Below are positions 29,069 to 41,169 of a stretch of DNA of 64,000 nt, piece by piece. The stretch comes from Marinoscillum sp. 108 (GTDB taxonomy: Bacteria > Bacteroidota > Bacteroidia > Cytophagales > Cyclobacteriaceae). Where the stretch lies: positions 2,726,501 to 2,790,500 of the forward strand of contig NZ_LR734808.1 in assembly GCF_902506655.1 (NCBI RefSeq), in the 5' to 3' direction. The translations under genes and the position numbers were made by a program. How positions within the stretch are numbered: position 1 is the stretch's first letter; every line of letters begins with the position of its first letter. Under the pieces are notes generated by a model. It was not told where the DNA came from. It saw only the letters and a list, made by a program, of their open reading frames with translations, and made no database searches.

Positions 29069-29088
29069 TCCAAAACTCAGTGACAAAA

Positions 29089-29514
29089 ATGTTTTCGAAA
29101 GCTTGTGAGTATGCACTAAAAGTCATGATTTATCTCTGTTCTGTCACGGAAGCGGGCAAGTTGGCTGGTCTGAAGGACATAGCCGGAGCAATAGATTCTC
29201 CGGAGGCCTATACAGCCAAAATATTGCAGCAGCTGGTAAGAGCAGGCTTATTGGAGTCATTGAGGGGGCCGAATGGAGGCTTCAAAGTGGCTGACCGTGA
29301 TATTACCCTAATGGAAGTGGTAACGGCCATAGACGGTGAGCACCTCGTGAAAAGCTGTGTACTGGGCCTTAAGGAATGCTCAGGAGAGCACCCTTGCCCG
29401 GCACATGATAAGTTTATCGCCATCAGAGACCATTTGAAAGGTGTATTGACAACAACCTACCTATCGGACCTGAAAGGTGGAGTAATTGAAGGAAATCGGT
29501 TTTTGAGGACATAA
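29089..29514 (+). CDS. Rrf2 family transcriptional regulator (NsrR/IscR-like)
   Basis: The 141-aa protein starts MFSKACEYALKVMIYL, a typical Rrf2 opening, with a winged helix (LKDIAGAIDSPEAYTAKILQ; LLESLRGPNGGFKV). Three cysteines occur in SCVLGLKECSGEHPCPAHD, the layout that binds an Fe-S cluster in NsrR and IscR. The next gene encodes the NO-damage repair protein Ric and the cluster makes N2O reductase, so NO or nitrosative-stress sensing is the likely role. It probably binds the palindrome upstream of its own promoter. Confidence 0.9.
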   Translation: MFSKACEYALKVMIYLCSVTEAGKLAGLKDIAGAIDSPEAYTAKILQQLVRAGLLESLRGPNGGFKVADRDITLMEVVTAIDGEHLVKSCVLGLKECSGEHPCPAHDKFIAIRDHLKGVLTTTYLSDLKGGVIEGNRFLRT

Positions 29515-29558: not shown

Positions 29559-30287
29559 ATGAAAAATCTAGCAAAATCAAAAGTGGGGGTCATCGTAGCA
29601 TCTAACTTCAGAACCTCCCGGGTATTCTCTTCGCACCACATAGATTTCTGCTGTAGCGGGGGTATCTCTCTGGAAGAGGCCTGCACCAGAAACAATGTGG
29701 ATTTGGACAGGGTGCTGGAGGAGTTGGAAGCGACCTTCCAGACCCCAGATACTATGAACTATCAGGAACTAGACCTTGATAAGCTCATTGACACCATTGT
29801 GAGCATGCATCACAGTTATGTTTGGGCTACTGTGCCAGCGCTCAGGGCTTATTTGGAGAAACTGTGCACAGTGCACGGTGATCGACACCCAGAGCTGCAT
29901 TCGGTCAATGATTTGTTTGCCAAGGGCTCCCAGGCATTGCTCGATCACATGACTAAGGAAGAGCAGATACTCTTTCCTTACATCAAGGCGATGGTACAGG
30001 CAAAGGCAAAAGAGTTTCCCTTATCAAAGCCTCATTTTGGAGATATTGAAAACCCCATTCAGATGATGGAGCAGGAGCACGAAGAAGAGGGCTTCAGGTT
30101 TCGTCAGATTGCAGAATTGACCGGTGGTTATGAATGTCCTCCGGATGGATGTCAAACCTACAAGGTGGCATATGCCATGCTCAAGGAGTTTGAAGAAGAT
30201 TTACACAAGCACATTCACCTGGAAAACAACATCTTATTTCCGGAGGCCAGAAAACTGTTCAGGGAATTCTCATTCAGTAATTCATAA
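29559..30287 (+). CDS. ric: Iron-sulfur cluster repair di-iron protein (Ric/ScdA)
   Basis: The 242-aa protein has the N-terminal ScdA/DUF542 domain with a double cysteine (HHIDFCCSGGISLEEAC) and a hemerythrin-like four-helix domain (VSMHHSYVWATVPALRAYL, HMTKEEQILFPYIKAM, EQEHEEEGFRFRQI, HKHIHLENNILFPEARKLF) whose His and Glu bind two irons. Ric/YtfE proteins repair Fe-S clusters damaged by NO or peroxide. Placement between an Rrf2 gene and nosZ fits defence against NO produced upstream in denitrification. Length matches the family. Confidence 0.94.
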   Translation: MKNLAKSKVGVIVASNFRTSRVFSSHHIDFCCSGGISLEEACTRNNVDLDRVLEELEATFQTPDTMNYQELDLDKLIDTIVSMHHSYVWATVPALRAYLEKLCTVHGDRHPELHSVNDLFAKGSQALLDHMTKEEQILFPYIKAMVQAKAKEFPLSKPHFGDIENPIQMMEQEHEEEGFRFRQIAELTGGYECPPDGCQTYKVAYAMLKEFEEDLHKHIHLENNILFPEARKLFREFSFSNS

Positions 30288-30299
30288 ACCCCAATAATC

Positions 30300-30770
30300 A
30301 TGAAAATTCTAAATCAATACCTTATTGCCGCTTCGTTTTTGGTGTTGCTTTCGGCCTGTGGTGGCGGAGGTAAAAGCCGGATTGAGCAAATCAAAGAGCA
30401 ATCGAAAGTGGAGCCATCCGATCCATACGAAAACTGGAAGCAATTTCACGGAGTAGGTCCTGTGAAGGCATTCACACTGCCCACAGAAGTAGATCAGCAA
30501 CTGGTAGCCAAGGGCCAGGAAATATTTGAATCTAAATGTACTGCCTGCCACAAAGTGGATAAGAAGTTCATTGGTCCATCACCTAAGGACATTTTGTCCA
30601 GAAGAAACCCCGCCTGGGTGATGAACATGATCCTGGATCCGGGAAAAATGGTTCAGGAAGACGCCATCGCGAAGAAGTTATTGATGGAATATAACGGGTC
30701 TCCTATGGCCAATCAAAACCTATCGGAAGAAGAAGCAAGATCCGTCCTGGAGTACTTCAGGACATTGTAG
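30300..30770 (+). CDS. Lipoprotein monohaem cytochrome c
   Basis: The 156-aa protein has a lipoprotein signal (FLVLLSAC) and one haem-binding site CTACHK near residue 80, with a likely axial methionine in NGSPMANQNL. It is of the class I cytochrome c fold. It lies 12 nt after ric and ahead of nosZ, so it is the best candidate electron donor for N2O reductase. Small c-type cytochromes are typical of clade II nos clusters. Confidence 0.92.
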   Translation: MKILNQYLIAASFLVLLSACGGGGKSRIEQIKEQSKVEPSDPYENWKQFHGVGPVKAFTLPTEVDQQLVAKGQEIFESKCTACHKVDKKFIGPSPKDILSRRNPAWVMNMILDPGKMVQEDAIAKKLLMEYNGSPMANQNLSEEEARSVLEYFRTL

Positions 30771-30782
30771 CAACTAAATCAT

Positions 30783-31364
30783 ATGATGATGAAAACTAAA
30801 TCAATTATGTCAATGATGGCCGTACTGGCCATGGGAGTGATGCTCTCCTGTTCATCAGGTAATACTGAGCGTACAGACGATCAGGCCACTTCTGCAGCAA
30901 CGAGTCATCCTAAAGGACAAGCCTCTGTCTCGGATAATGTTTCAGACAGGAACATCCTACAGGTAGCCGTAGCTTCTGATGCGCATACCACGCTGGTGGC
31001 AGCTGTGGAGGCTGCCCAAATAGAGCATGTCTTGGTAAATGCCGGTCCCCTCACAGTTTTTGCACCTACCAATGAGGCTTTCAACTTATTGCCGGAAGGG
31101 GTGGTAGAAAACCTGCTGAAGCCTGAAAACAAAAGCGATCTGGCCACTACCCTCACACGGCACGCCGCACCAGGGTCTTTTGACCTGGAAGCACTCAAAA
31201 GGGAGGCAAGTAAGGGGAGAAAAATTTACATGGCCACCGGAGACTATCTGGAGGTGAAAGTTGACGGTGATAATGTATCAGTGGGGGGAGCCAATATTCT
31301 GGCCACTATATCCACCTCCAATGGGATCATACATGTCATTGATAAAGTGATTGCGTCTAACTAA
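30783..31364 (+). CDS. Fasciclin-domain lipoprotein
   Basis: The 193-aa protein has a lipoprotein signal (VLAMGVMLSC) and one fasciclin (FAS1) domain from about residue 55 to the end, with AAVEAAQIEHVLVNAGPLTV-like H1 text, FAPTNEAFNLLP, and the terminal IHVIDKVIA segment (ANILATISTSNGIIHVIDKV). FAS1 domains mediate adhesion or protein-protein contacts. It is embedded between the cytochrome and nosZ with short spacers, so it is co-transcribed; perhaps it holds the periplasmic enzymes in place, but this is only inference. Confidence 0.9.
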   Translation: MMMKTKSIMSMMAVLAMGVMLSCSSGNTERTDDQATSAATSHPKGQASVSDNVSDRNILQVAVASDAHTTLVAAVEAAQIEHVLVNAGPLTVFAPTNEAFNLLPEGVVENLLKPENKSDLATTLTRHAAPGSFDLEALKREASKGRKIYMATGDYLEVKVDGDNVSVGGANILATISTSNGIIHVIDKVIASN

Positions 31365-31378
31365 AACAACAGATTAAA

Positions 31379-33337
31379 ATGAAAACTATATCAGTATTAT
31401 CCAATGTCTTTATAGTTGGTGCCTTCATATTGATCACCTCATGTGGCCAATCGGGTAGCAATGGAAAAAGTGCCCTCAGCAGTAACGTAGCTGAGAAGGT
31501 GTACATAGCCCCGGGTGAAAGGGACGAGCAGTATGCCTTTTTGTCTGGTGGATACAGCGGCAACCTGACCGTGTATGGATTGCCATCGGGCAGAATGTTC
31601 AAGGAAATCCCTGTCTTTTCACAGTTTCCCACTTCCGGGTATGGGTATTCAGAAGAGACCAAACCCATGCTGAACACTTCGTTTGGTTTTGTACCCTGGG
31701 ATGATTTGCACCATCCGGATATTTCACAGACTAATGGTGAGCTGGACGGCAGGTGGATTTTTGCCAATGGAAACAACACACCCCGAATTGCCAGGATCAG
31801 TCTCAGTACTTTTGAGACCGAGGAGATCATAGAAGTACCCAACAGTGCGGGTAACCATAGCTCCTCTTTTATCACTGAAAATACCGAGTATGTGGTGGCC
31901 GGAACACGTTTCTCTGTTCCGGTACCTCAAAGGGACATACCGATCAGTGAGTACAAGAGCAATTTCAAAGGGGCATTGACCTTTATATCAGTTGAGCCGG
32001 AGCATGGGCACATGGAGATAAAATTTCAACTCTTAATGCCGGGATTTAATTACGATTTATCTCACCCGGGAAGAGACAAATCTCACGGTTGGTTTTTCTT
32101 TTCTACTTACAACACAGAGGAAGCAAACACCCTGTTGGAAGTAAACGCCTCGCAAAATGACAAGGACTTCATAGCGGCGGTGAACTGGAAAATGATAGAA
32201 GCATATGTGAACAACGGAGGAGGAAAGAAAATGTCTACCAGGTATGCCCACAATGTGTATGATGAATCTACACACACGGCTACTTCTACCATGAATAAGG
32301 AGGTACTGACCGTAGACCCCGCAGAAGTACCGGGAGCGATCTATTTTTTACCAACCCCAAAATCACCACATGGATGTGATGTGGACCCTACTGGCCAGTA
32401 CATTATTGGCTCGGGTAAGCTTTCAGCGGATCTTACTGTTCACTCTTTTGATAAAATGCTCGCGGCTATCAAAGCTGAAAAGTTTGATGGAGAAGCATAT
32501 GGCATCCCGATTTTGAATTACCAGGATGTGCTGGCTGGTACCGTAAGCAGCGGAGGCCTGGGGCCATTGCACACAGAGTTTGATGGTCGGGGCAACGCCT
32601 ATACTACCTTCTTTATTTCTTCAGAAGTGGTGAAATGGAAATTGGGAACCTGGGAGGTCATAGACAGAAAGCCTACCTACTACTCTGTGGGGCACCTGAT
32701 GATTCCTGGAGGAAACTCCCGAAAGCCACATGGCAAGTACCTGGTGGCGATGAACAAAATCACCAAAGATCGATACCTTCCAACGGGTCCTGAAATGGAA
32801 CACTCTGCGCAGATATATGACATCACCGGGGAAAAAATGGAGCTGCTGTATGATTTTCCGACTCACGGTGAGCCTCACTATGCGGCAGGTTGTAATGCTG
32901 AGCTTTTGGTGAACAACTCCAAAAAGATCTATCGATTGGATGAAAACAATCACCCTTACGCTATAAAGAGCCCTGCTGAAGCCAGGGTGGAAAGAACCGG
33001 AAACGAGGTGCACATTTACATGTCTACCATCAGAAGTCACTTTACACCTGACAATATAGAAGGCATCAAAGTAGGTGACAAGGTCTACTTCCACATCACC
33101 AACCACGAGCAGGACTTTGATGTGCCACATGGTTTTTCTATGATCGGTCAGGGTACATCTGAAATACTGATCATGCCTGGTCAAACCAAAACCTCGCTTT
33201 GGGAGCCTAAGCGTGTGGGTGTATGGCCGTTCTATTGTACGGACTTTTGCTCCGCACTGCATCAGGAAATGCAAGGCTACGTGCGTGTTTCTCCGGCAAA
33301 TTCCGATCTCGAGTTAAGCTGGTCTTTAGATGATTGA
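31379..33337 (+). CDS. nosZ: Nitrous oxide reductase, clade II, Sec-dependent lipoprotein
   Basis: NosZ reduces N2O to N2 with the copper centres CuA and CuZ. The 652-aa protein has a propeller N-terminal part with the histidines of CuZ (for example near DDLHHPDISQTNG, PHGCDVDPTG, GKPHG-like RKPHGKYL and GEPHYA) and a cupredoxin C-terminal domain with the CuA motif PFYCTDFCSALHQEMQG (C620, C624, H628, M631). The signal is lipoprotein-type (ILITSC, Cys22) with no twin-arginine motif, the mark of clade II. It should be anchored in a membrane facing the periplasm. A long hairpin follows the stop. Confidence 0.96.
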   Translation: MKTISVLSNVFIVGAFILITSCGQSGSNGKSALSSNVAEKVYIAPGERDEQYAFLSGGYSGNLTVYGLPSGRMFKEIPVFSQFPTSGYGYSEETKPMLNTSFGFVPWDDLHHPDISQTNGELDGRWIFANGNNTPRIARISLSTFETEEIIEVPNSAGNHSSSFITENTEYVVAGTRFSVPVPQRDIPISEYKSNFKGALTFISVEPEHGHMEIKFQLLMPGFNYDLSHPGRDKSHGWFFFSTYNTEEANTLLEVNASQNDKDFIAAVNWKMIEAYVNNGGGKKMSTRYAHNVYDESTHTATSTMNKEVLTVDPAEVPGAIYFLPTPKSPHGCDVDPTGQYIIGSGKLSADLTVHSFDKMLAAIKAEKFDGEAYGIPILNYQDVLAGTVSSGGLGPLHTEFDGRGNAYTTFFISSEVVKWKLGTWEVIDRKPTYYSVGHLMIPGGNSRKPHGKYLVAMNKITKDRYLPTGPEMEHSAQIYDITGEKMELLYDFPTHGEPHYAAGCNAELLVNNSKKIYRLDENNHPYAIKSPAEARVERTGNEVHIYMSTIRSHFTPDNIEGIKVGDKVYFHITNHEQDFDVPHGFSMIGQGTSEILIMPGQTKTSLWEPKRVGVWPFYCTDFCSALHQEMQGYVRVSPANSDLELSWSLDD

Positions 33338-33386: not shown

Positions 33387-33425
33387 TCTTGATCACACAA
33401 TGAGTACTTGCAAAAAAGCAACAAA

Positions 33426-34493
33426 ATGAAGAAGGCAAGCATATTAATGATTATTGGAAGCGTGATGTTGTTGGGGCTATTCGTTTTTCCCATGTGGAAC
33501 ATCCGGCTGGGAGCACCACAGTATCCTGAACCGCTGGGCATAGATATTTATGTCAACGGACTCCAGGGTGAAAGTGAGTTTGACATCCAGAACATTGATG
33601 GTCTTAATCACTATATAGGCATGAAGACACTGCCTAAACCTGAAGAGATGTGGGAGTTTTCGGTTTTTCCCAAAGTGGTGATGGCCATGGCTTCTCTGGG
33701 GGTATTGATAGGGCTGCTGGGCTTCCTTGGAAAAATAAGACCGATATGGTTTCTCATCTGGTTTCTCACTATGAGTGCGTTGGGAGCCCTTGGTATCTAC
33801 GATTTCAACCTGTGGCTGGTGGCATACGGTACGGACCTGGATCCCAATGCGATCTTAAAACTGGTCAATCCGGATGGAACACCCATGCAATACAATCCAC
33901 CGCTCATTGGACATAAGAAGTTGCTCAATTTCGATGCTTTTTCTTATCCGAGGCTCGGGGGTATCCTACTGGGAATAGGCATGACGCTAGCGGCTGTGGC
34001 TTACTTTGTAGGGAAAAAGTCAAAGTCTAAGCGCTATTTGGCGGCTCTGAAAAACTCGGCATTGGTCGTGTTGATTTTTCTCGTTTCGCAATTGCTCAGT
34101 TCTTGCCAACCGGGCCCTGAGCCTATTCATTACGGACAGGATGCTTGTGATTTTTGCAGGATGACCATTGTGGACAAACAGCACGCTGCACAAATGGTGA
34201 CTGAGAAAGGGCGTGTATATAAGTATGATGCCATAGAGTGTATGCTGAATGATCTGAAGGATTGGGACCGACCGGCCATACAATATCACCTCGTGGCTGA
34301 CTACCAGAATCCTGGCAAGCTCACCGATGCTATAAAAGCCAGTTACCTCATTAGTGATAAGATTCCAAGTCCGATGGGAGCCTACCTGAGTGCTTTCTCG
34401 ACCACCCAATCCAGGGATAAAACTCATCATTCAGTTGGTGGACAGACCCTGGAATGGACCCAACTCCAAAACCAATTCGAAATATCAAATTGA
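33426..34493 (+). CDS. nosL: NosL with N-terminal membrane domain
   Basis: The ATG at 33426 gives 355 aa (a TTG at 33408 is not needed). Residues 1-205 hold about four membrane helices and a periplasmic loop; a fifth hydrophobic stretch (SALVVLIFLVSQLLSSC) ends in Cys227, a lipobox-like site inside the protein. The rest is a NosL domain with DACDFCRMTI, YDAIECMLNDL and IPSPMGAYLSAFS. NosL is a Cu(I) chaperone needed for CuZ assembly and is normally a small lipoprotein, so this is a membrane-domain fusion. The spacer to the next gene is 6 nt. Confidence 0.88.
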   Translation: MKKASILMIIGSVMLLGLFVFPMWNIRLGAPQYPEPLGIDIYVNGLQGESEFDIQNIDGLNHYIGMKTLPKPEEMWEFSVFPKVVMAMASLGVLIGLLGFLGKIRPIWFLIWFLTMSALGALGIYDFNLWLVAYGTDLDPNAILKLVNPDGTPMQYNPPLIGHKKLLNFDAFSYPRLGGILLGIGMTLAAVAYFVGKKSKSKRYLAALKNSALVVLIFLVSQLLSSCQPGPEPIHYGQDACDFCRMTIVDKQHAAQMVTEKGRVYKYDAIECMLNDLKDWDRPAIQYHLVADYQNPGKLTDAIKASYLISDKIPSPMGAYLSAFSTTQSRDKTHHSVGGQTLEWTQLQNQFEISN

Positions 34494-34499
34494 AATGCC

Positions 34500-35906
34500 A
34501 TGATTCGCTCCTTCTTTTTACTGATATATCTGATGAGCACTGTGGTCTTTGCTCAAAGCGTGAACATTGATCAGGATTTGTGCAAACACTGCGGCATGTT
34601 GATCCGGGACCGAAGCTTTGTTGCACTCGCTGTGGATGCTGATCATCGAACACAAACCTTTGATGCGATCGAATGCCTGGTGAATTATTTGAAAGTGCAT
34701 GATGAAGCGTCTTTCAGCCAGCTTTTGGTTACGGACTACTCCAGATCCAATGGGTGGATAGAGGCAAAGGATGCTTTTTATATAAAAAGTAGTGCCATAC
34801 CAAGCCCAATGGGTGCTTACCTGTCTGCTTATTCGAATTTGCAGGAGGTCCAAAACATCCAGACACAGATGGGAGGGGATATTTTCACCTGGACCGAGCT
34901 CTTACGGCAGTTTGAAGGTTCGCGATTTGGAGTGATCAATCACCCAGACCACCATGATCGGGGAGATGCATACGGTCCCATCGGTGTTATGGGCGACCAT
35001 GTGCATCATCAAGGTGGCTGGATGGTCAGTGTGCGCTCCATGTTTATGCAAATGAGTGGAAACCAGACAGGAACGAAATCAGTCAGCAATGAGGAGGTTT
35101 ATACTCAGTACCACGCCGCCCCTCAGCAAATGAGGATGAGCATGTACATGCTAGGTGTGATGTATGCCCCCACCGATCGGCTGACCCTCGCCATGATGCA
35201 ACCATTGATCTGGCGTGAGATGGACATGAATGCCATGAACCATCAGGCAATGCCTATGTCAGAAATGAGCTATCAAACCAGGAGTTTCGGGTTGGGCGAC
35301 CTGAAACTGTCAGCCCTTTACAGCCTGATTGCCAAGACTGGTTCATCGTTTCACCTCAATATTGGGATAAGCTTACCAACAGGGTCTTATGATCAATCGG
35401 ATAACACGCCAATGTCCGACAATATGAAGCTCCCCTATGCCATGCAAATTGGCTCAGGAACCACCGATTTGAATCTTGGTGCTACTTATAAAGTGGCGTT
35501 TGAAAAGGTAGGTTTGGGTGTTCAGCCTATGGCCTTGCTGAGAATCGGAGAAAACAGATCCTCCTACCGGCTGGGCAATCAGTATGGTCTGAACAGCTGG
35601 TTTGTTTATACTCCGGATAATTGGTTGGGTTTGGTGGGCCGGACGGAGCTTATTCTCCGGCACAAGATATCCGGGATAGATTCAGATCTAAATCCGATGA
35701 TGGCTCCACCCTCCAATGTGGAGAATTCCGGCAGTGAACAGGTCAATGTTTTCGCAGGAGTTAACGTTGGTTTTCCAGCGTCGGTCACCTCTTTAAAAAA
35801 CGTAAAATTGGGAATGGAACTGGGAACCCCGATTTATAGAAGTGTTCGGGGGATTCAAATGACCGAATCCTTCACCATCAATTCAGGAATCAGATACATG
35901 TTTTAA
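34500..35906 (+). CDS. NosL domain fused to a predicted outer-membrane beta-barrel
   Basis: The 468-aa protein has a signal peptide (LMSTVVFAQ), then a NosL-like domain to about residue 140 (DLCKHCGMLIRD, FDAIECLVNYL, IPSPMGAYLSAYS), and then a His/Met-rich bridge (HPDHHDRGDAYGPIGVMGDH, followed by HHQGGWM). The C-terminal 290 residues look like an outer-membrane barrel: alternating polar/hydrophobic strands, amphipathic turns, and a terminal aromatic (RYMF). Met-rich loops (MDMNAMNHQAMPMSEM) suggest copper binding. I know of no described NosL-barrel protein. It may load or export copper at the outer membrane, or sense it. Confidence in the NosL half is high, in the barrel half moderate. Confidence 0.75.
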   Translation: MIRSFFLLIYLMSTVVFAQSVNIDQDLCKHCGMLIRDRSFVALAVDADHRTQTFDAIECLVNYLKVHDEASFSQLLVTDYSRSNGWIEAKDAFYIKSSAIPSPMGAYLSAYSNLQEVQNIQTQMGGDIFTWTELLRQFEGSRFGVINHPDHHDRGDAYGPIGVMGDHVHHQGGWMVSVRSMFMQMSGNQTGTKSVSNEEVYTQYHAAPQQMRMSMYMLGVMYAPTDRLTLAMMQPLIWREMDMNAMNHQAMPMSEMSYQTRSFGLGDLKLSALYSLIAKTGSSFHLNIGISLPTGSYDQSDNTPMSDNMKLPYAMQIGSGTTDLNLGATYKVAFEKVGLGVQPMALLRIGENRSSYRLGNQYGLNSWFVYTPDNWLGLVGRTELILRHKISGIDSDLNPMMAPPSNVENSGSEQVNVFAGVNVGFPASVTSLKNVKLGMELGTPIYRSVRGIQMTESFTINSGIRYMF

Positions 35907-35916
35907 TCACAGTAAC

Positions 35917-37152
35917 ATGAGACTAGAACGTTGTATCATGCTAATTATCCTATTCACTTCTCTGGTGAGCCGTGCGTCTGTTACGTCGGTTTGTGGTGAT
36001 TGTGCCATTACCAGTGTAGCGGAGGCAGTAAGGCATGCCAGGGCAAAAGATACGGTGAGGGTTCAGCGCGGGACATACGTTTGCAAAAACCTGACCATCG
36101 ATAAACCCATTACGTTGATTGGGGATTCGGGAGCCATCCTTGATGGAGCCAATGAAAGTTATGTACTCAGGTTATTGGCTGATAGCATTGTGGTGTATGG
36201 TTTTACCATCACCAATTCAGGAAGGAGTTACACCAAGGACTTTGCTGCGATTTATGCTTATAATACCTCGGGTATTTGGATCGAAAATAATCAGGTGAGC
36301 CAGTCATTTTTTGGGATACTGATAGAAAAATCAACTGGAGGAACCATACGAGGAAACAAAGTGACAGGAACGGCCACTCAGGAAGATCAGTCCGGCAATG
36401 GAATTCATCTTTGGAATTGTGATCACATGCAAATCGAGTCAAACGAAGTAAAAGGGATGCGGGATGGGATTTATCTGGAGTTTGTAGATGAGAGCTATGT
36501 GACTGATAACAAAACACACTTCAATGTTCGGTATGGTTTGCACTTTATGTTCTCAAATCATGATGAGTATAGGGGCAACACTTTTCAGCACAATGGGGCA
36601 GGTGTAGCGGTGATGTTTTCCAAATGGATCAGAATGGAGCAAAACAGGTTCATGGATAACTGGGGAACCGCCTCGTACGGACTGTTGCTCAAGGAGATTT
36701 ATGATGGGGAAGTACGGAACAACACCTTTCAGGAAAATACCATTGGGGTATATGTGGATGGATCAGCTAGAGTAACGTACTCGGGCAATACCTTTAGGCA
36801 GAATGGTTGGGCAGTAAAAGTGTCCGGGGGCTGCTATGCCAATGCATTTACTGCCAACAACTTTATTGGCAACTCCTTTGATGTGTCGTACAACTCCAAA
36901 ATGAATGACAATACCTTCAATGGTAACTTTTGGAGTGCCTACAGCGGCTATGATCTGGACAAAGACGGGAGTGGAGATGTGCCGTACCGTCCCGTGAAGC
37001 TATTCTCTTATGTGGTGAATAGAACTCCGGAGACCATAGTGCTGCTCAGAAGTCTTTTTGTGGACATCATCAATTTTTCGGAAAAAGTCTCTCCGGCTTT
37101 TACACCCGCCGACCTGGTAGATCAGACACCTTCAATGCGAATATTCAGATGA
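35917..37152 (+). CDS. nosD: Copper-site maturation protein NosD
   Basis: The 411-aa periplasmic protein has a signal peptide (MLIILFTSLVSRAS) and a right-handed parallel beta-helix of CASH/PbH1 repeats (for example SGIWIENNQVSQSFFGILIE, NGIHLWNCDHMQIESNEVKG, NNTFQENTIGVYVDGSARVT). NosD works with the NosFY ABC transporter to supply or insert the cluster into NosZ. Its last 4 bases overlap nosF. The paired cysteines in SVCGDCAI just after the signal are a possible metal- or disulfide-site. Confidence 0.93.
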   Translation: MRLERCIMLIILFTSLVSRASVTSVCGDCAITSVAEAVRHARAKDTVRVQRGTYVCKNLTIDKPITLIGDSGAILDGANESYVLRLLADSIVVYGFTITNSGRSYTKDFAAIYAYNTSGIWIENNQVSQSFFGILIEKSTGGTIRGNKVTGTATQEDQSGNGIHLWNCDHMQIESNEVKGMRDGIYLEFVDESYVTDNKTHFNVRYGLHFMFSNHDEYRGNTFQHNGAGVAVMFSKWIRMEQNRFMDNWGTASYGLLLKEIYDGEVRNNTFQENTIGVYVDGSARVTYSGNTFRQNGWAVKVSGGCYANAFTANNFIGNSFDVSYNSKMNDNTFNGNFWSAYSGYDLDKDGSGDVPYRPVKLFSYVVNRTPETIVLLRSLFVDIINFSEKVSPAFTPADLVDQTPSMRIFR

Positions 37153-37847
37153 TTACAGTGACCAATATTAGGAAGTCCTTCGGTAACCTTCAGGTACTGA
37201 AAAACCTCAACTTTGAGATCAGCAAAGGCGGGATAGTTGCAATCCTGGGTCCGAATGGCTCTGGAAAAACCACATTTTTAAAGATTTTGCTTGGCATGGT
37301 GATTCCTGACGGTGGCCATATCTTTTATCAGCAAAAAGATATAGCCGGGTCTCATGCATACAGAAAGCATATTGGTTATCTGCCGCAGATTGCTCGTTTC
37401 CCGGATAACCTGAAGGTAAGAGAGATACTGGAGATGATCGCTGACATTCGCAACGAACCCGCCAGCCCGGAGCCACTCATTGAACTCTTTGGGATGGAGA
37501 AATTTATGGAGAAGAAACTGGGAGATCTGTCCGGAGGTACCAGGCAGAAGGTCAATATCGTATTGACCTTTATGTTTGACAGCCCGGTGATCATACTGGA
37601 TGAACCCACAGCAGGCCTTGATCCGGTCTCACTGATCCGGTTGAAGGAACTCATCAATAAGGAAAAGTCAAAGGGTAAGCTCATTTTGATCACTTCTCAC
37701 ATCATGAGCCTGGTAGAAGAACTTGCCGACGAAGTGGTGTTTTTACTAGAGGGCAATATCTACTTCAAAGGGACCGTCACAGACCTGAAGTCCAAAACTG
37801 ACAGTGTAGATTTAGAACACGCGATAGCGAGAATTCTGGAACCATGA
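37149..37847 (+). CDS. nosF: ABC transporter ATP-binding protein NosF
   Basis: The 232-aa ATPase has Walker A GPNGSGKTT, the Q-loop in IGYLPQIARF, the signature LSGGTRQKV, and Walker B VIILDEPTAGLD, with the switch histidine in LITSHIMSLVEE. It powers NosY, and the complex acts on a sulfur or copper-related component for NosZ maturation. It overlaps nosD and nosY by 4 nt each. Confidence 0.95.
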   Translation: MITVTNIRKSFGNLQVLKNLNFEISKGGIVAILGPNGSGKTTFLKILLGMVIPDGGHIFYQQKDIAGSHAYRKHIGYLPQIARFPDNLKVREILEMIADIRNEPASPEPLIELFGMEKFMEKKLGDLSGGTRQKVNIVLTFMFDSPVIILDEPTAGLDPVSLIRLKELINKEKSKGKLILITSHIMSLVEELADEVVFLLEGNIYFKGTVTDLKSKTDSVDLEHAIARILEP

Positions 37848-38626
37848 TCAAGATTTTAAAATATAGTTTTTCTGATTTGACGCGGAGTAGGTGGAGTTTT
37901 ATATACCTGGCTTTTTACCTGCTGCTGGGGTCTGTGCTTCTGTTTCTGAACAACGACCTGTCCAAAGGCATCATTACCTTGATGAATGTGATAGTGGTGC
38001 TCACACCCATGATTGGGACCATTTTTGGGGTGATGTATTTTTACAATTCCAGAGAGTTTACAGAGCTTTTACTTGCCCAACCTGTGAAGCGTTCGGTGAT
38101 CTTTCTGGGGCAGTATTTGGGTATATCCATTTCATTGTCACTAAGCCTTGTCCTAGGGTTGGGTCTTCCTTTTCTGGCCTACGGTCTTTTTCGCTCTGGC
38201 GAAATAGCCAATTTTATCCTATTGATCACTTCTGGTACTTTGTTGACCTTCATCTTCGTGGCCCTTTCTATCTGTATTGCTTTGTTCAATTCTAACAAGA
38301 TTAAGGGCTTTGGCTACGCCATACTGATGTGGTTGTTTTTTGCGGTGATTTATGATGGTCTGGTGCTCTTGTCCATGATGGTGTTTGCAGAGTATCCTCT
38401 AGATAATTTTGCTTTGATTGCGAGCTTTCTGAATCCAATTGATTTGTCCAGAATCATGATCTTGTTGAAGTTGGATATTTCAGCCTTGCTGGGTTATACG
38501 GGAGCTTTGTTTCAGCGATTTTTTGGCACCAGTTTGGGGTTGATTGCTTCCTGGTGTATGCTTTTGATTTGGACCATCGTTCCTACGGTTCTCCTGATCA
38601 GAAAAGCTCAGAGGAAGAATTTCTAA
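37844..38626 (+). CDS. nosY: ABC transporter permease NosY
   Basis: The 260-aa protein has six predicted membrane helices and resembles ABC-2-type permeases (FYNSREFTELLLAQPVKRS, a coupling-helix-like segment). It is the membrane partner of NosF. It is the last gene of the nos cluster. A convergent regulator gene ends 62 nt away; no clear terminator is visible in that gap. Confidence 0.92.
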   Translation: MIKILKYSFSDLTRSRWSFIYLAFYLLLGSVLLFLNNDLSKGIITLMNVIVVLTPMIGTIFGVMYFYNSREFTELLLAQPVKRSVIFLGQYLGISISLSLSLVLGLGLPFLAYGLFRSGEIANFILLITSGTLLTFIFVALSICIALFNSNKIKGFGYAILMWLFFAVIYDGLVLLSMMVFAEYPLDNFALIASFLNPIDLSRIMILLKLDISALLGYTGALFQRFFGTSLGLIASWCMLLIWTIVPTVLLIRKAQRKNF

Positions 38627-38688: not shown

Positions 38689-41169
38689 TCAGATTTTGAA
38701 TTGTTTAGGATAATCCTGCTTCATTACTTTTCTGTATCTGATGAGGAATTCGTTATACTTGATTAAGGCCTCATCTCTTCTTTCCATGTTTTGTAGGGAC
38801 TTTATTTGATACTCCAGGGCCACATCGCTTAGTGGGTCTATTTCAAACAAAGCCTTGGATAAGGCGATGCTCATCAGGAATAACCCGGAAGAATAGCTTT
38901 TTTCGATCTCCACAATCAGGATTGGTTCCAATTTTCTTTCGGTAGATGTCTTAAATGAATCAAATATTGGTTCATTAAGGTTGTTTAAGAACTTACCGCG
39001 AGAAACGATTTGGGCAAAAGACTCCTGATGTTCGGCTAACTTATTGGAGGAGAGGATTTCCACAAAATTGATATAGTCACAGTGTAGTTCTGGAGTATGT
39101 GTGAGTCGGTAGTATCCATTTTCATAGATCAATTCTATACCATCTAGTTCCGAGAGCACTTTTCTCAAATTGTTGATGGTCACACCTCGTGAATTCTTCA
39201 ACTTCTCACCCTCCTTGTCTGGCCAGAGCATGTTGCTCAGGTTTTTTGAATTGATACCCTCTTTCACACTATGTTGGAGTATGAGGCAAAACATTTCTGT
39301 TAGTCGGGAGCTAAACATGTAGCTGATATCCTTACCACTTCTATCAAAAACCGTGAAATTACCAAACAGGAATATTGAATTGGGTTTATGCTCATCAGTG
39401 GGGGAGGTTCCTTTCTCCGACATCTCCCGAGACCCTCTCTGTTTTATGGACTTTGCTCTTTTCTTCAATAGAAGGTAGCCCAATACCACGATGAATAGCA
39501 TACTGAGCAAAAGGGTGATCAGCTTCGTGGCCACGGAACTATCTGATTTCACCTGAGTCATCAGTTTGTCCACTGTCACGGCGGGAAACGCGATGGAGTA
39601 GATTTTCAGCTGTGAAGCAATATCATCATCTTCAAATTCCTGTACCAGTGCGTAAAGTGTTTGCTCACTGCTGCTATAATATATGTTGGCATTGGTATTC
39701 ATTTTATCCGAGTGGATCGGGATAGAATCTCCCAGAATATTGAAGACCCCATCTTGTAATGAGTACTGATAAAGCTTGAGAAATGAATCTGTATAATGCT
39801 CCGGATAGCATAAGGTGTAGAAGCTGGAGTCCATAATCACCATACTTCGTACAGGCACCATTTCTATATTATCCCAGGGAATATCCCAGAGTTTCGATGT
39901 TTTCTTTGTTTCCAGGTTCACCTCATAGAGGTCATGCATGTATTTCCTACCCACAATCTGGTCCCCGGATTTATTGCCCATGCCTCCAAAGATGTATATG
40001 GACTGTTCCTGCTCCACATAGCTAATACTGGCAAAGTATCGTGGGGAAATAAAATCTCCTTCCAGATCAGTTAGAATTTCCTCCCAGTCATTGGTGGTCG
40101 TGCTGTAGCTATAAAAAGAGTTGCTATAACGTTTGTCCCCAAACCCTCCGAAAAGCACAAATCGATCACGCTTAGCGTCGAAGAAACGCCCATGATGAAA
40201 TAACCTCTTTTGAAGTTTGTCATAGCTTTCTGTTTTCCATTCGAAGCTGGTTAGATCGAGACTTGCCACTGAGGGCTCGTTGGTGTTGGTATACACCTCA
40301 TACACATATAATTTATTGTTTTCAGCATCAATGAAGCTGGTGCCAGTGGTAAAGTTGATTGGACATTCATTTTTGAGGACGATGACATTGGCCCTGTCCG
40401 TTTTGGTATTGTATTGGAATAAGGTGTCTTTATTGAAGTAATAAATTTCATTATTAGTAGGGTTATGACACGATCCGGCTACTGCCCTGGATTTGAATGA
40501 ATGCTTTAGACGCCAGAAATAGGCATCGTTGATCAGCCAATCCGGATTTTCTACCCATCCGATGGCATTACCCTCCTCATCATGCACAGCTTTGCCACGA
40601 CCTTCGCTTAACTGAAATGTGTATTTGTTGCCATCTCCTATGGAGAGGTCTCTGATGGCGAAAGAAGGCACTTCTATGATGTAGTCACTTTTACCAAAGA
40701 TCACTGTAGGGTGGTAGGTATCCGGCAGATCTAATTTCTCGATGGTATGGATTTGATCCTGTATGGATAGCTTCAGCTGGTTTTGTTGAAGATTAAATGA
40801 TATCCCTACATGAATCCATCTGGCCTTATTTAAAATGTCTTTGTCAAGTCTTGCAGTAACAAGACTGCTTACCCCTTCTTCATTAAACTTGAAAACAAGG
40901 TCATCATTCTGCTCTTCAAAGAAGAGGTTGTAAATCGTACTGTTTTTGGCGTCTTTGATGCGGAGGATATAGCCTATCTGATGAGTAGAGTAGAGTGATA
41001 GATCAAACTCTATGGAAAAATGACCTGAAAATTCTACGGATTGATCATTGAAGACATTATAGGAAGTCCGCTCATCGATCGGGTGGGTATTGTCCTTGAA
41101 CCTCAATCCCTGTGTAGGATTGGTTTGGATAGAAATTACCGATAGAAGTAAAAGGACTAAATGATTCAT
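38689..41169 (-). CDS. Membrane-bound winged-helix/BTAD regulator with LamG- and kelch-like sensor
   Basis: The 826-aa protein has a signal peptide, a LamG/concanavalin-like domain (about 25-190), a kelch propeller (about 225-520, with repeats such as RFVLFGGFGDKRYSNSFYSY and SIYIFGGMGNKSGDQIVG), a transmembrane helix (about 548-570), and a cytoplasmic winged helix plus BTAD-like helices (about 605-826, FGNFTVFDRSGKDIS and NLRKVLSELDGIELIYENGY). The head resembles the SARP/OmpR-type DNA-binding unit. So an extracytoplasmic glycan- or ligand-binding module is coupled directly to DNA binding without phosphorelay. It diverges from the mannan locus across 439 bp and may control it. Confidence 0.75.
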   Translation of the reverse strand: MNHLVLLLLSVISIQTNPTQGLRFKDNTHPIDERTSYNVFNDQSVEFSGHFSIEFDLSLYSTHQIGYILRIKDAKNSTIYNLFFEEQNDDLVFKFNEEGVSSLVTARLDKDILNKARWIHVGISFNLQQNQLKLSIQDQIHTIEKLDLPDTYHPTVIFGKSDYIIEVPSFAIRDLSIGDGNKYTFQLSEGRGKAVHDEEGNAIGWVENPDWLINDAYFWRLKHSFKSRAVAGSCHNPTNNEIYYFNKDTLFQYNTKTDRANVIVLKNECPINFTTGTSFIDAENNKLYVYEVYTNTNEPSVASLDLTSFEWKTESYDKLQKRLFHHGRFFDAKRDRFVLFGGFGDKRYSNSFYSYSTTTNDWEEILTDLEGDFISPRYFASISYVEQEQSIYIFGGMGNKSGDQIVGRKYMHDLYEVNLETKKTSKLWDIPWDNIEMVPVRSMVIMDSSFYTLCYPEHYTDSFLKLYQYSLQDGVFNILGDSIPIHSDKMNTNANIYYSSSEQTLYALVQEFEDDDIASQLKIYSIAFPAVTVDKLMTQVKSDSSVATKLITLLLSMLFIVVLGYLLLKKRAKSIKQRGSREMSEKGTSPTDEHKPNSIFLFGNFTVFDRSGKDISYMFSSRLTEMFCLILQHSVKEGINSKNLSNMLWPDKEGEKLKNSRGVTINNLRKVLSELDGIELIYENGYYRLTHTPELHCDYINFVEILSSNKLAEHQESFAQIVSRGKFLNNLNEPIFDSFKTSTERKLEPILIVEIEKSYSSGLFLMSIALSKALFEIDPLSDVALEYQIKSLQNMERRDEALIKYNEFLIRYRKVMKQDYPKQFKI

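Follow-up and report, generated by a model that had tools for sequence, protein, structure and literature searches.

A lack of copper disables N2O reductase, the enzyme responsible for removing the greenhouse gas N2O. To the question of how its copper gets through the outer membrane, NosA was proposed as an answer and then doubted. The window analyzed here, a stretch of 64,000 nucleotides from Marinoscillum sp. 108, poses this question in the form of a single gene: does a protein in which a NosL copper-chaperone domain is followed by a predicted outer-membrane barrel provide an entry route for this copper? Were that so, copper would pass, within a single polypeptide, from the cell exterior to the chaperone that serves N2O reductase. 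A channel fused to a dedicated chaperone also makes the copper-entry question testable with one gene.

The fusion gene and its nos cluster

The nos cluster of the window is of the clade II type, with all genes running in one direction on the forward strand. It opens with an Rrf2-type regulator (29080..29514), named by eye and having homologs beside nos genes in relatives, and a Ric-type gene for a protein with ScdA_N and hemerythrin domains (29559..30287), identified by domain search. Genes for a cytochrome c (30300..30770) and a fasciclin-domain protein (30783..31364), both recognized by domain search and conserved order, precede the Sec-type (clade II) nosZ (31379..33337; TIGR04246, 921 bits) and a gene for a 361-aa protein joining a membrane domain to a first NosL domain (33408..34493; Pfam NosL at residues 244-355). 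The fusion gene (34500..35906) starts 6 bases past the end of the latter and stops 10 bases before the start of nosD (35917..37152; TIGR04247, 433 bits). It is followed by nosF, an ABC ATPase gene (37149..37847) that matches ABC models, with the listed equivalogs below their cut-offs, and was assigned by position and homology, and by nosY (37844..38626), named by position and without an NCBIfam match. Promoter- and terminator-like sites show no excess, being about as many as, or fewer than, in shuffled sequences. The membrane domain and NosL are likewise encoded by a single gene in a number of other Bacteroidota nos clusters (L088-L093), and the six further long NosL frames that we inspected as candidate fusions proved to be these common genes; in the Flavobacteriaceae loci with the fusion, the two are separate genes. 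Downstream, on the opposite strand (38689-41169), lies an 826-aa gene whose product, as read by eye, has kelch-like repeats, a transmembrane stretch and a regulator-like C-terminus.

The fusion gene encodes 468 amino acids from an ATG start, an assignment backed by the reading frame, its translation and homologous one-frame fusions in 16 other genomes. A signal peptide read by eye (residues 1-19; 34500..34556), in which a pattern search found no lipobox, leads into a NosL domain (residues 24-134; 34569..34901; PF05573, 48.6 bits against a cut-off of 24). This carries the clade II NosL motif CXXCXM as CKHCGM (residues 28-33; 34581..34598; motif as in an excerpt of PMC6530538) and the SPMG motif with the second conserved Met (residues 102-105; 34803..34814). 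A His-rich linker and pre-strand segment with GDHxH (residues 144-173; 34929..35018) connects it to the predicted outer-membrane barrel (residues 174-467; 35019..35900), within which residues 230-380 match the Pfam family Phenol_MetA_deg (PF13557, 24.9 bits against a cut-off of 22). A PDB sequence search with the protein retrieved two NosL chains only, weakly (E 0.0066), with OprC absent at E <= 1, and no Pfam match to the TonB Plug domain was found at E <= 1. The reading frame, length and motifs (CKHCGM, FDAIECL, PSPMGAYLS) given in an earlier note on this DNA, made from the sequence alone, are exact, and its description of this NosL unit as a second one agrees with the Pfam NosL domain that ends the upstream 361-aa protein.

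Predicted structure

The full-length AlphaFold2 model, built with 15 sequences, has a pLDDT of 78 and a pTM of 0.63, and consists of a NosL-like part followed by long strands over residues 174-467; residues 141-160 between them fall to a pLDDT of about 50. DSSP assigns 12 long strands, the last of which (435-467) is 33 residues long, so that the exact strand count leans on the match to the closest known fold. This is the 12-stranded COG4313 channel 4rl8, retrieved by Foldseek and VIA-align with a Z-score of 25.9 and 2.4 Å over 254 of its 267 residues; the next match is FapF, with a Z-score of 24.3-24.6. In that search the NosL part of the model was hardly probed, and it was therefore folded alone. 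The resulting model (pLDDT 88.6) matches the NosL crystal structure 7og7 with a Z-score of 16.3 and 2.0 Å over 118 residues, and the NosL chains of NosDFYL with Z-scores of 14.3-14.8; it scores 8.1 against MerB and 7.3, below MerB, against the NMR structure of apo-NosL (2hpu). Thus, the N-terminal part is predicted to have the NosL fold and the C-terminal part to be a barrel of the outer-membrane type, the reading that the earlier note had given for the last 290 residues.

Ancillary motifs of the NosL part and linker

The CXXCXM and SPMG motifs are kept in all 17 fusions that we recovered. By pattern search, no lipobox precedes these motifs in the 16 of the 17 with a clear start; one (L164) has an unclear start codon to which the test is inapplicable, and in another (L167) the pattern match ends in the first Cys of CXXCXM itself. 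The fusion loci are listed with 15 separate NosL genes upstream, and by eye each of these has a lipobox-like Cys. Because the lipobox is missing, the fusions contain a NosL domain without being canonical NosL lipoproteins, and the barrel seems to take the place of the lipid by which ordinary NosL is anchored. The 14-residue stretch ahead of the RPDxHA box holds at least three His in 17/17 fusions, in one of 68 unfused barrels outside nos clusters and in two of the four unfused barrels linked to nos genes. The earlier note had spoken of His- and Met-rich loops: the residues are there, but the His cluster lies in the linker before strand 1 and the Met with the highest conservation sit on strands 1-3 rather than in loops.

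Two other small proteins were seen in this part of nos clusters. One is a 171-aa protein resembling a diverged NosL without CXXCXM, as judged by eye, beside NosL and a separate barrel gene (L157:7954-8469). The other is a cupin-like (by eye) protein of ~97 aa encoded between nosL and nosD (L206:12724-13017; also L204, L205, L218, L219), which belongs to several fusion-free clusters and to one that has the fusion (L168).

Phyletic distribution and provenance

Full-length fusions in one reading frame were found in 17 genomes: that of the window, those of YR2-618, Flaviramulus and two close Maribacter (the four named Flavobacteriaceae), G403 from the window's order, G200, G601 and G602 from another family, and eight more from the family of G272, which is Flavobacteriaceae by content. 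They are rare in every set sampled, sets that overlap and in which strongly diverged fusions could be missed: at least 2/395 genomes of the class sample (at least 2/129 of those with nosZ), at least 2/194 of the order sample, at least 3/46 of the G200 family, at least 9/329 of the G272 family (one of them, G957, apparently the YR2-618 genome) and at least 1/395 of the phylum sample. Of 94 G272-family genomes scored in one run, 43 have nosZ, and four of those 43 have the fusion. The fusion sits between nosL and nosD in 16/17 genomes; in the exception (G1018) it lies on a separate 8.8-kb contig, with an ordinary nos cluster elsewhere. All 17 genomes have nosZ (in G1059 as two contig-edge fragments), bearing out the co-occurrence on which the earlier note had staked its reading.

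In a tree of 89 barrels, the 17 fusions fall on one side of a branch with an SH-aLRT support of 100; being one clade, they are not independent cases. The same observations bear on whether an assembly error or frameshift joined two genes, for which one might cite a locus where the barrel is a separate gene after nosL (L157). Its recurrence as an uninterrupted frame in 17 genomes, with barrels that form one well-supported clade, indicates that the fusion is not such an artifact, and we regard the chance of one, raised by the earlier note itself, as negligible.

The fusion is not typical of nos clusters in Cytophagales, given at least 2/194 genomes in the order sample, and it is missing from the nos clusters examined in seven further members of the window's family. 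Six of these members carry another NosZ branch; the seventh (G127, locus L088) has the same type of nos cluster as the window, without the fusion. The fusion, being rare and missing there, is therefore dispensable. On the NosZ tree the fusion genomes are scattered and the fusion label needs 8 changes, which is compatible with one origin plus losses or transfers; the fusion has probably undergone repeated loss or transfer. The NosZ of the window, 90% identical to that of G403, nests among flavobacterial types, apart from those of the six family members, so that the nos cluster of the window was probably acquired by transfer. Eight plasmid records matched in both searches, and none of the five regions examined shows a link to nos genes.

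The barrel family and its conserved methionines

The barrel alignment comprises 89 rows, namely, the 17 fusions and 72 of 83 unfused barrels, with eight barrels from reduced genomes and three of deviating length left out. Met is found in 78-87 of the 89 rows at columns 175, 181, 183 and 185 of strand 1, 211, 213, 215, 217 and 221 of strand 2, and 231, 233 and 241 of strand 3, and in 89/89 rows at column 315. Ten of the twelve columns in strands 1-3 (35022..35222 in the window, which has Ala at 231) keep Met in 17/17 fusions, and conservation is alike in fusions and stand-alone barrels. Within each of the three strands, all conserved Met lie on one face. With Met excluded, the fraction of aliphatic and aromatic residues on the Met face versus the other is 0.04 versus 0.43 for strand 1, 0.04 versus 0.39 for strand 2 and 0.11 versus 0.45 for strand 3. 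By hydropathy, the Met face is the more polar one on strands 1 and 3; on strand 2 the two faces are nearly equal and the non-Met face has more polar residues. It is thus a fair inference from residue composition that the Met face of strands 1 and 3 looks into the lumen, but that of strand 2 is not clearly the lumen face.

The eight barrels left out (L078-L083, L086, L087), of which two are incomplete or masked, come from reduced genomes of the window's order. They have lost most of the conserved Met, with a mean of 2.3% Met against 7.1-9.3% in the fusions, and the complete ones have a different N-terminal part of ~155 residues. A further relative is a 738-aa protein from a Methylosinus plasmid (L099:5576-7792), which combines an OMP_b-brl domain with the barrel and adjoins feoB, with a PepSY gene nearby.

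Genomic neighborhoods of unfused barrels

The 83 unfused barrel loci are those retrieved rather than a random sample, mostly spanning 9-19 kb, with some short contigs. Their neighbors are nos genes in 4, MbnP, a copper protein, in 17, and a small Cys-motif ORF without MbnP in 32; 8 belong to the reduced-genome group and 22 are other. With 79 of the 83 elsewhere, the barrel is not a nos-only family. The four nos-linked cases are an Oleispira barrel gene divergent from nosR-nosZ (L039), one after nosY (L056), one ahead of the nos cluster (L192) and a separate gene between nosL and nosD (L157), an unfused equivalent of the fusion. The four require 4 changes on the barrel tree, of which well-supported branches force at least three, and L056 has a long branch; nos genes thus have an unfused barrel for a neighbor in at least three lineages. 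Within the G272 family, nosZ is present in 9/9 genomes with the fusion and in 7/32 with only an unfused barrel, leaving 25/32 without nosZ. Other company of the relatives includes cytochrome c maturation genes in Ruegeria, nitrate and nitrite genes in one Methylocystis and feoB in Methylosinus.

The small ORF (L043, L047, L206, L260 and others) encodes ~122 aa with a motif of the C-x(7-11)-CxGxC type and a Pro-Pro near the C-terminus, the two being 63-70 residues apart in 56 of the 57 measured among 58 sequences. It lies directly upstream of 52/83 unfused barrels, one class of which is partly defined by it, and of 0/16 fusion loci, and is also found in six of seven nos-linked OprC-like loci shown. 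Two representatives tested had no Pfam match. The ORF may recall the copper-sensing DUF2946 leader ORF of Bordetella, which, in an excerpt of PMC9426467, has CXXC and RAPP motifs and precedes a TonB receptor gene and a PepSY gene. A TonB gene beside the L043 barrel was considered as a copper receptor and set aside, its best model being of the siderophore type and under the cut-off.

The fusion and OprC-like copper receptors

Among 48 nos loci compared, an OprC-related TonB receptor occurs in 4 of the 32 without the fusion (L093, L203, L206, L208) and in none of the 16 with it (one a duplicate). The L206 receptor matches PDB 6fok with E 9.8e-15, and its best NCBIfam model is TonB-copper, at 115 bits under the cut-off of 472. 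Such loci also hold a YtkA-type protein and often the small Cys-motif ORF. In whole genomes, an OprC-like receptor scored at E <= 1e-60, a threshold under which weaker copper receptors may exist in fusion genomes, is present in 22 of 45 NosZ-positive genomes that lack the fusion (the 45 being 38 of the 94-genome run and 7 with an unfused barrel), in 0/14 searched fusion genomes and in 3/42 genomes without nosZ. By coordinates, 11 of the 22 receptors lie within 10 kb of nosZ, two of them (L260, L261) in line with it. Neither fusion nor receptor was found in 23 of the 45.

Kinship ignored, the mutual exclusion has a Fisher p of 0.0009, or 0.007 within one family. Kinship was corrected for on the NosZ tree, which covered 56 of the 59 genomes because three had a split or partial NosZ; the independent pairs then number 0 going the same way and 1-3 going the other, which is not significant. 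Consequently, we dropped the exclusion as proof of replacement and treat it as suggestive. The apparent exclusion suggests more than one solution to copper entry among clade II N2O reducers.

Proposed function and alternative explanations

We lean toward the view that the fusion is an outer-membrane copper entry-and-handover module for N2O reductase, an alternative to NosA/OprC. The C-terminal barrel, going by its predicted structure, would insert in the outer membrane. Copper would then enter it and, as the conservation suggests, pass by way of the strand 1-3 Met and the GDHxH segment; from there it would reach the His-rich linker, on the periplasmic side. Because the N-terminus of the COG4313 channel enters the barrel from the periplasmic side (PMC4493636, in excerpt), the NosL domain is placed in the periplasm, where, tethered at the mouth, it would take Cu(I) at CXXCXM and the second Met, as studied NosL proteins might lead one to expect. 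In line with the operon, it would hand copper to NosZ together with NosDFY, alongside the NosL domain of the preceding gene. The barrel would thereby stand in for the lipid anchor and may stand in for a receptor of the OprC/NosA type. Copper passage, its direction, handover to NosZ and OprC replacement are all steps of this inferred scheme. Counted in its favor are the position between nosL and nosD, nosZ in 17/17 genomes, the kept NosL motifs, the conserved Met, the His linker, the COG4313 fold match, the nos-linked unfused barrels in at least three lineages and the distribution of OprC-like receptors. Counted against it are the 79/83 unfused barrels outside nos clusters and the 25/32 unfused-only genomes without nosZ, the doubtful face of strand 2, the eight Met-poor barrels, the rarity of the fusion and the L088 cluster without it, the exclusion that loses significance after kinship correction and the 23/45 genomes with neither protein. 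The doubt that the authors of the COG4313 study express about hydrophilic transport (excerpt of PMC4493636) counts in the same direction. A wider proposal, which we hold only tentatively, is that a family of Met-lined, TonB-independent channels imports copper in Bacteroidota and beyond, with one branch having become fused to NosL and replaced the OprC/NosA route.

Other roles for the barrel have to be weighed against entry and handover. It might be an anchor only, keeping the second NosL on the outer membrane as a lipid otherwise would, with no copper passing through it. The fusion has no lipobox, an outer-membrane location is predicted for NosL lipoproteins in any case (PMC6530538, in excerpt) and the studied COG4313 channel is almost completely occluded (PMC4493636, in excerpt). 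However, the Met columns of strands 1-3, ten of twelve in 17/17 fusions, are kept beyond the needs of an anchor and the His-rich linker is nearly confined to fusions, which makes a mere anchor unlikely in our estimation. That the Met serve a hydrophobic or other small molecule taken up by the barrel, with copper linked indirectly, would fit the relatives that adjoin cytochrome c maturation or nitrate genes and those implicated in uptake of sphingosine or trichlorophenol (excerpt of PMC4493636); yet the fusion to NosL and the recurrence of the barrel beside nos and MbnP genes point to copper, and we judge this reading to be unlikely as well. Channels have no inherent direction, and Met- and His-rich proteins are common in copper tolerance, so that the barrel might move copper outward or guard against its excess, with NosL as a buffer at the periplasmic mouth. 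Against such a role, no efflux gene is recognized in the nos operon of the window as annotated and the receptor missing where the fusion occurs, OprC, is of the import type; we consider this role, too, unlikely.

Comparison with known systems

For a NosL-barrel fusion, we found no description in open-access titles and abstract openings, a range that takes in few subscription journals; the earlier note likewise knew of none. NosL and a barrel protein appear as separate genes in the excerpted text of PMC9603813. The outer membrane as such is a different matter: the earlier note had placed it outside the standard Nos scheme, which is overstated, as canonical NosL itself is predicted to sit in the outer membrane as a lipoprotein turned toward the periplasm (Bennett et al. 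2019, PMC6530538, in excerpt) and the TonB-dependent outer-membrane protein NosA of Pseudomonas stutzeri was linked to NosZ copper (excerpt of PMC7558416). Hence, of that interpretation, a NosL domain and a barrel in a nos operon, recurring with nosZ, holds, and the novelty of the outer membrane does not. The difference lies in a chaperone and a channel in one chain, with no TonB plug found; an outer-membrane copper step itself is not new.

Ordinary NosL (PF05573; 7og7, 7osf) shares with the fusion the domain, the fold, CXXCXM, the second conserved Met and the place in the nos operon, but it is a lipoprotein without a barrel, whereas the fusion lacks a lipobox and has a barrel after NosL. The COG4313/PF13557 channel Pput2725 (4rl8) resembles the fusion in predicted fold over 254 residues and in having an N-terminal segment before strand 1; it differs in that the conserved Met on strands 1-3 and the folded N-terminal domain belong to the fusion, and in that studied COG4313 members are tied to hydrophobic molecules. 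Its authors, in the excerpted text, consider hydrophilic solutes unlikely, describe a channel mostly non-conducting at low voltage and implicate relatives in the uptake of hydrophobic compounds such as sphingosine and trichlorophenol (PMC4493636). The MbnP-linked barrels of Bacteroidota belong to the same barrel family and have most of the Met columns, but are unfused and lie beside MbnP and usually the small Cys-motif ORF, not beside nos genes. The amyloid exporter FapF is a barrel of like fold that, unlike the fusion, secretes amyloid, and we know of no link between it and metals. Like the role proposed for the fusion, the TonB-dependent receptors NosA and OprC represent an outer-membrane copper step connected with N2O reductase. 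In excerpts of PMC8610252, the residues of the OprC methionine track are conserved in NosA, OprC occurs in non-denitrifiers too and a later nosA knockout is cited as having made no difference. In contrast to these receptors, the fusion shows no TonB plug match, draws on another barrel family and has its chaperone covalently attached.
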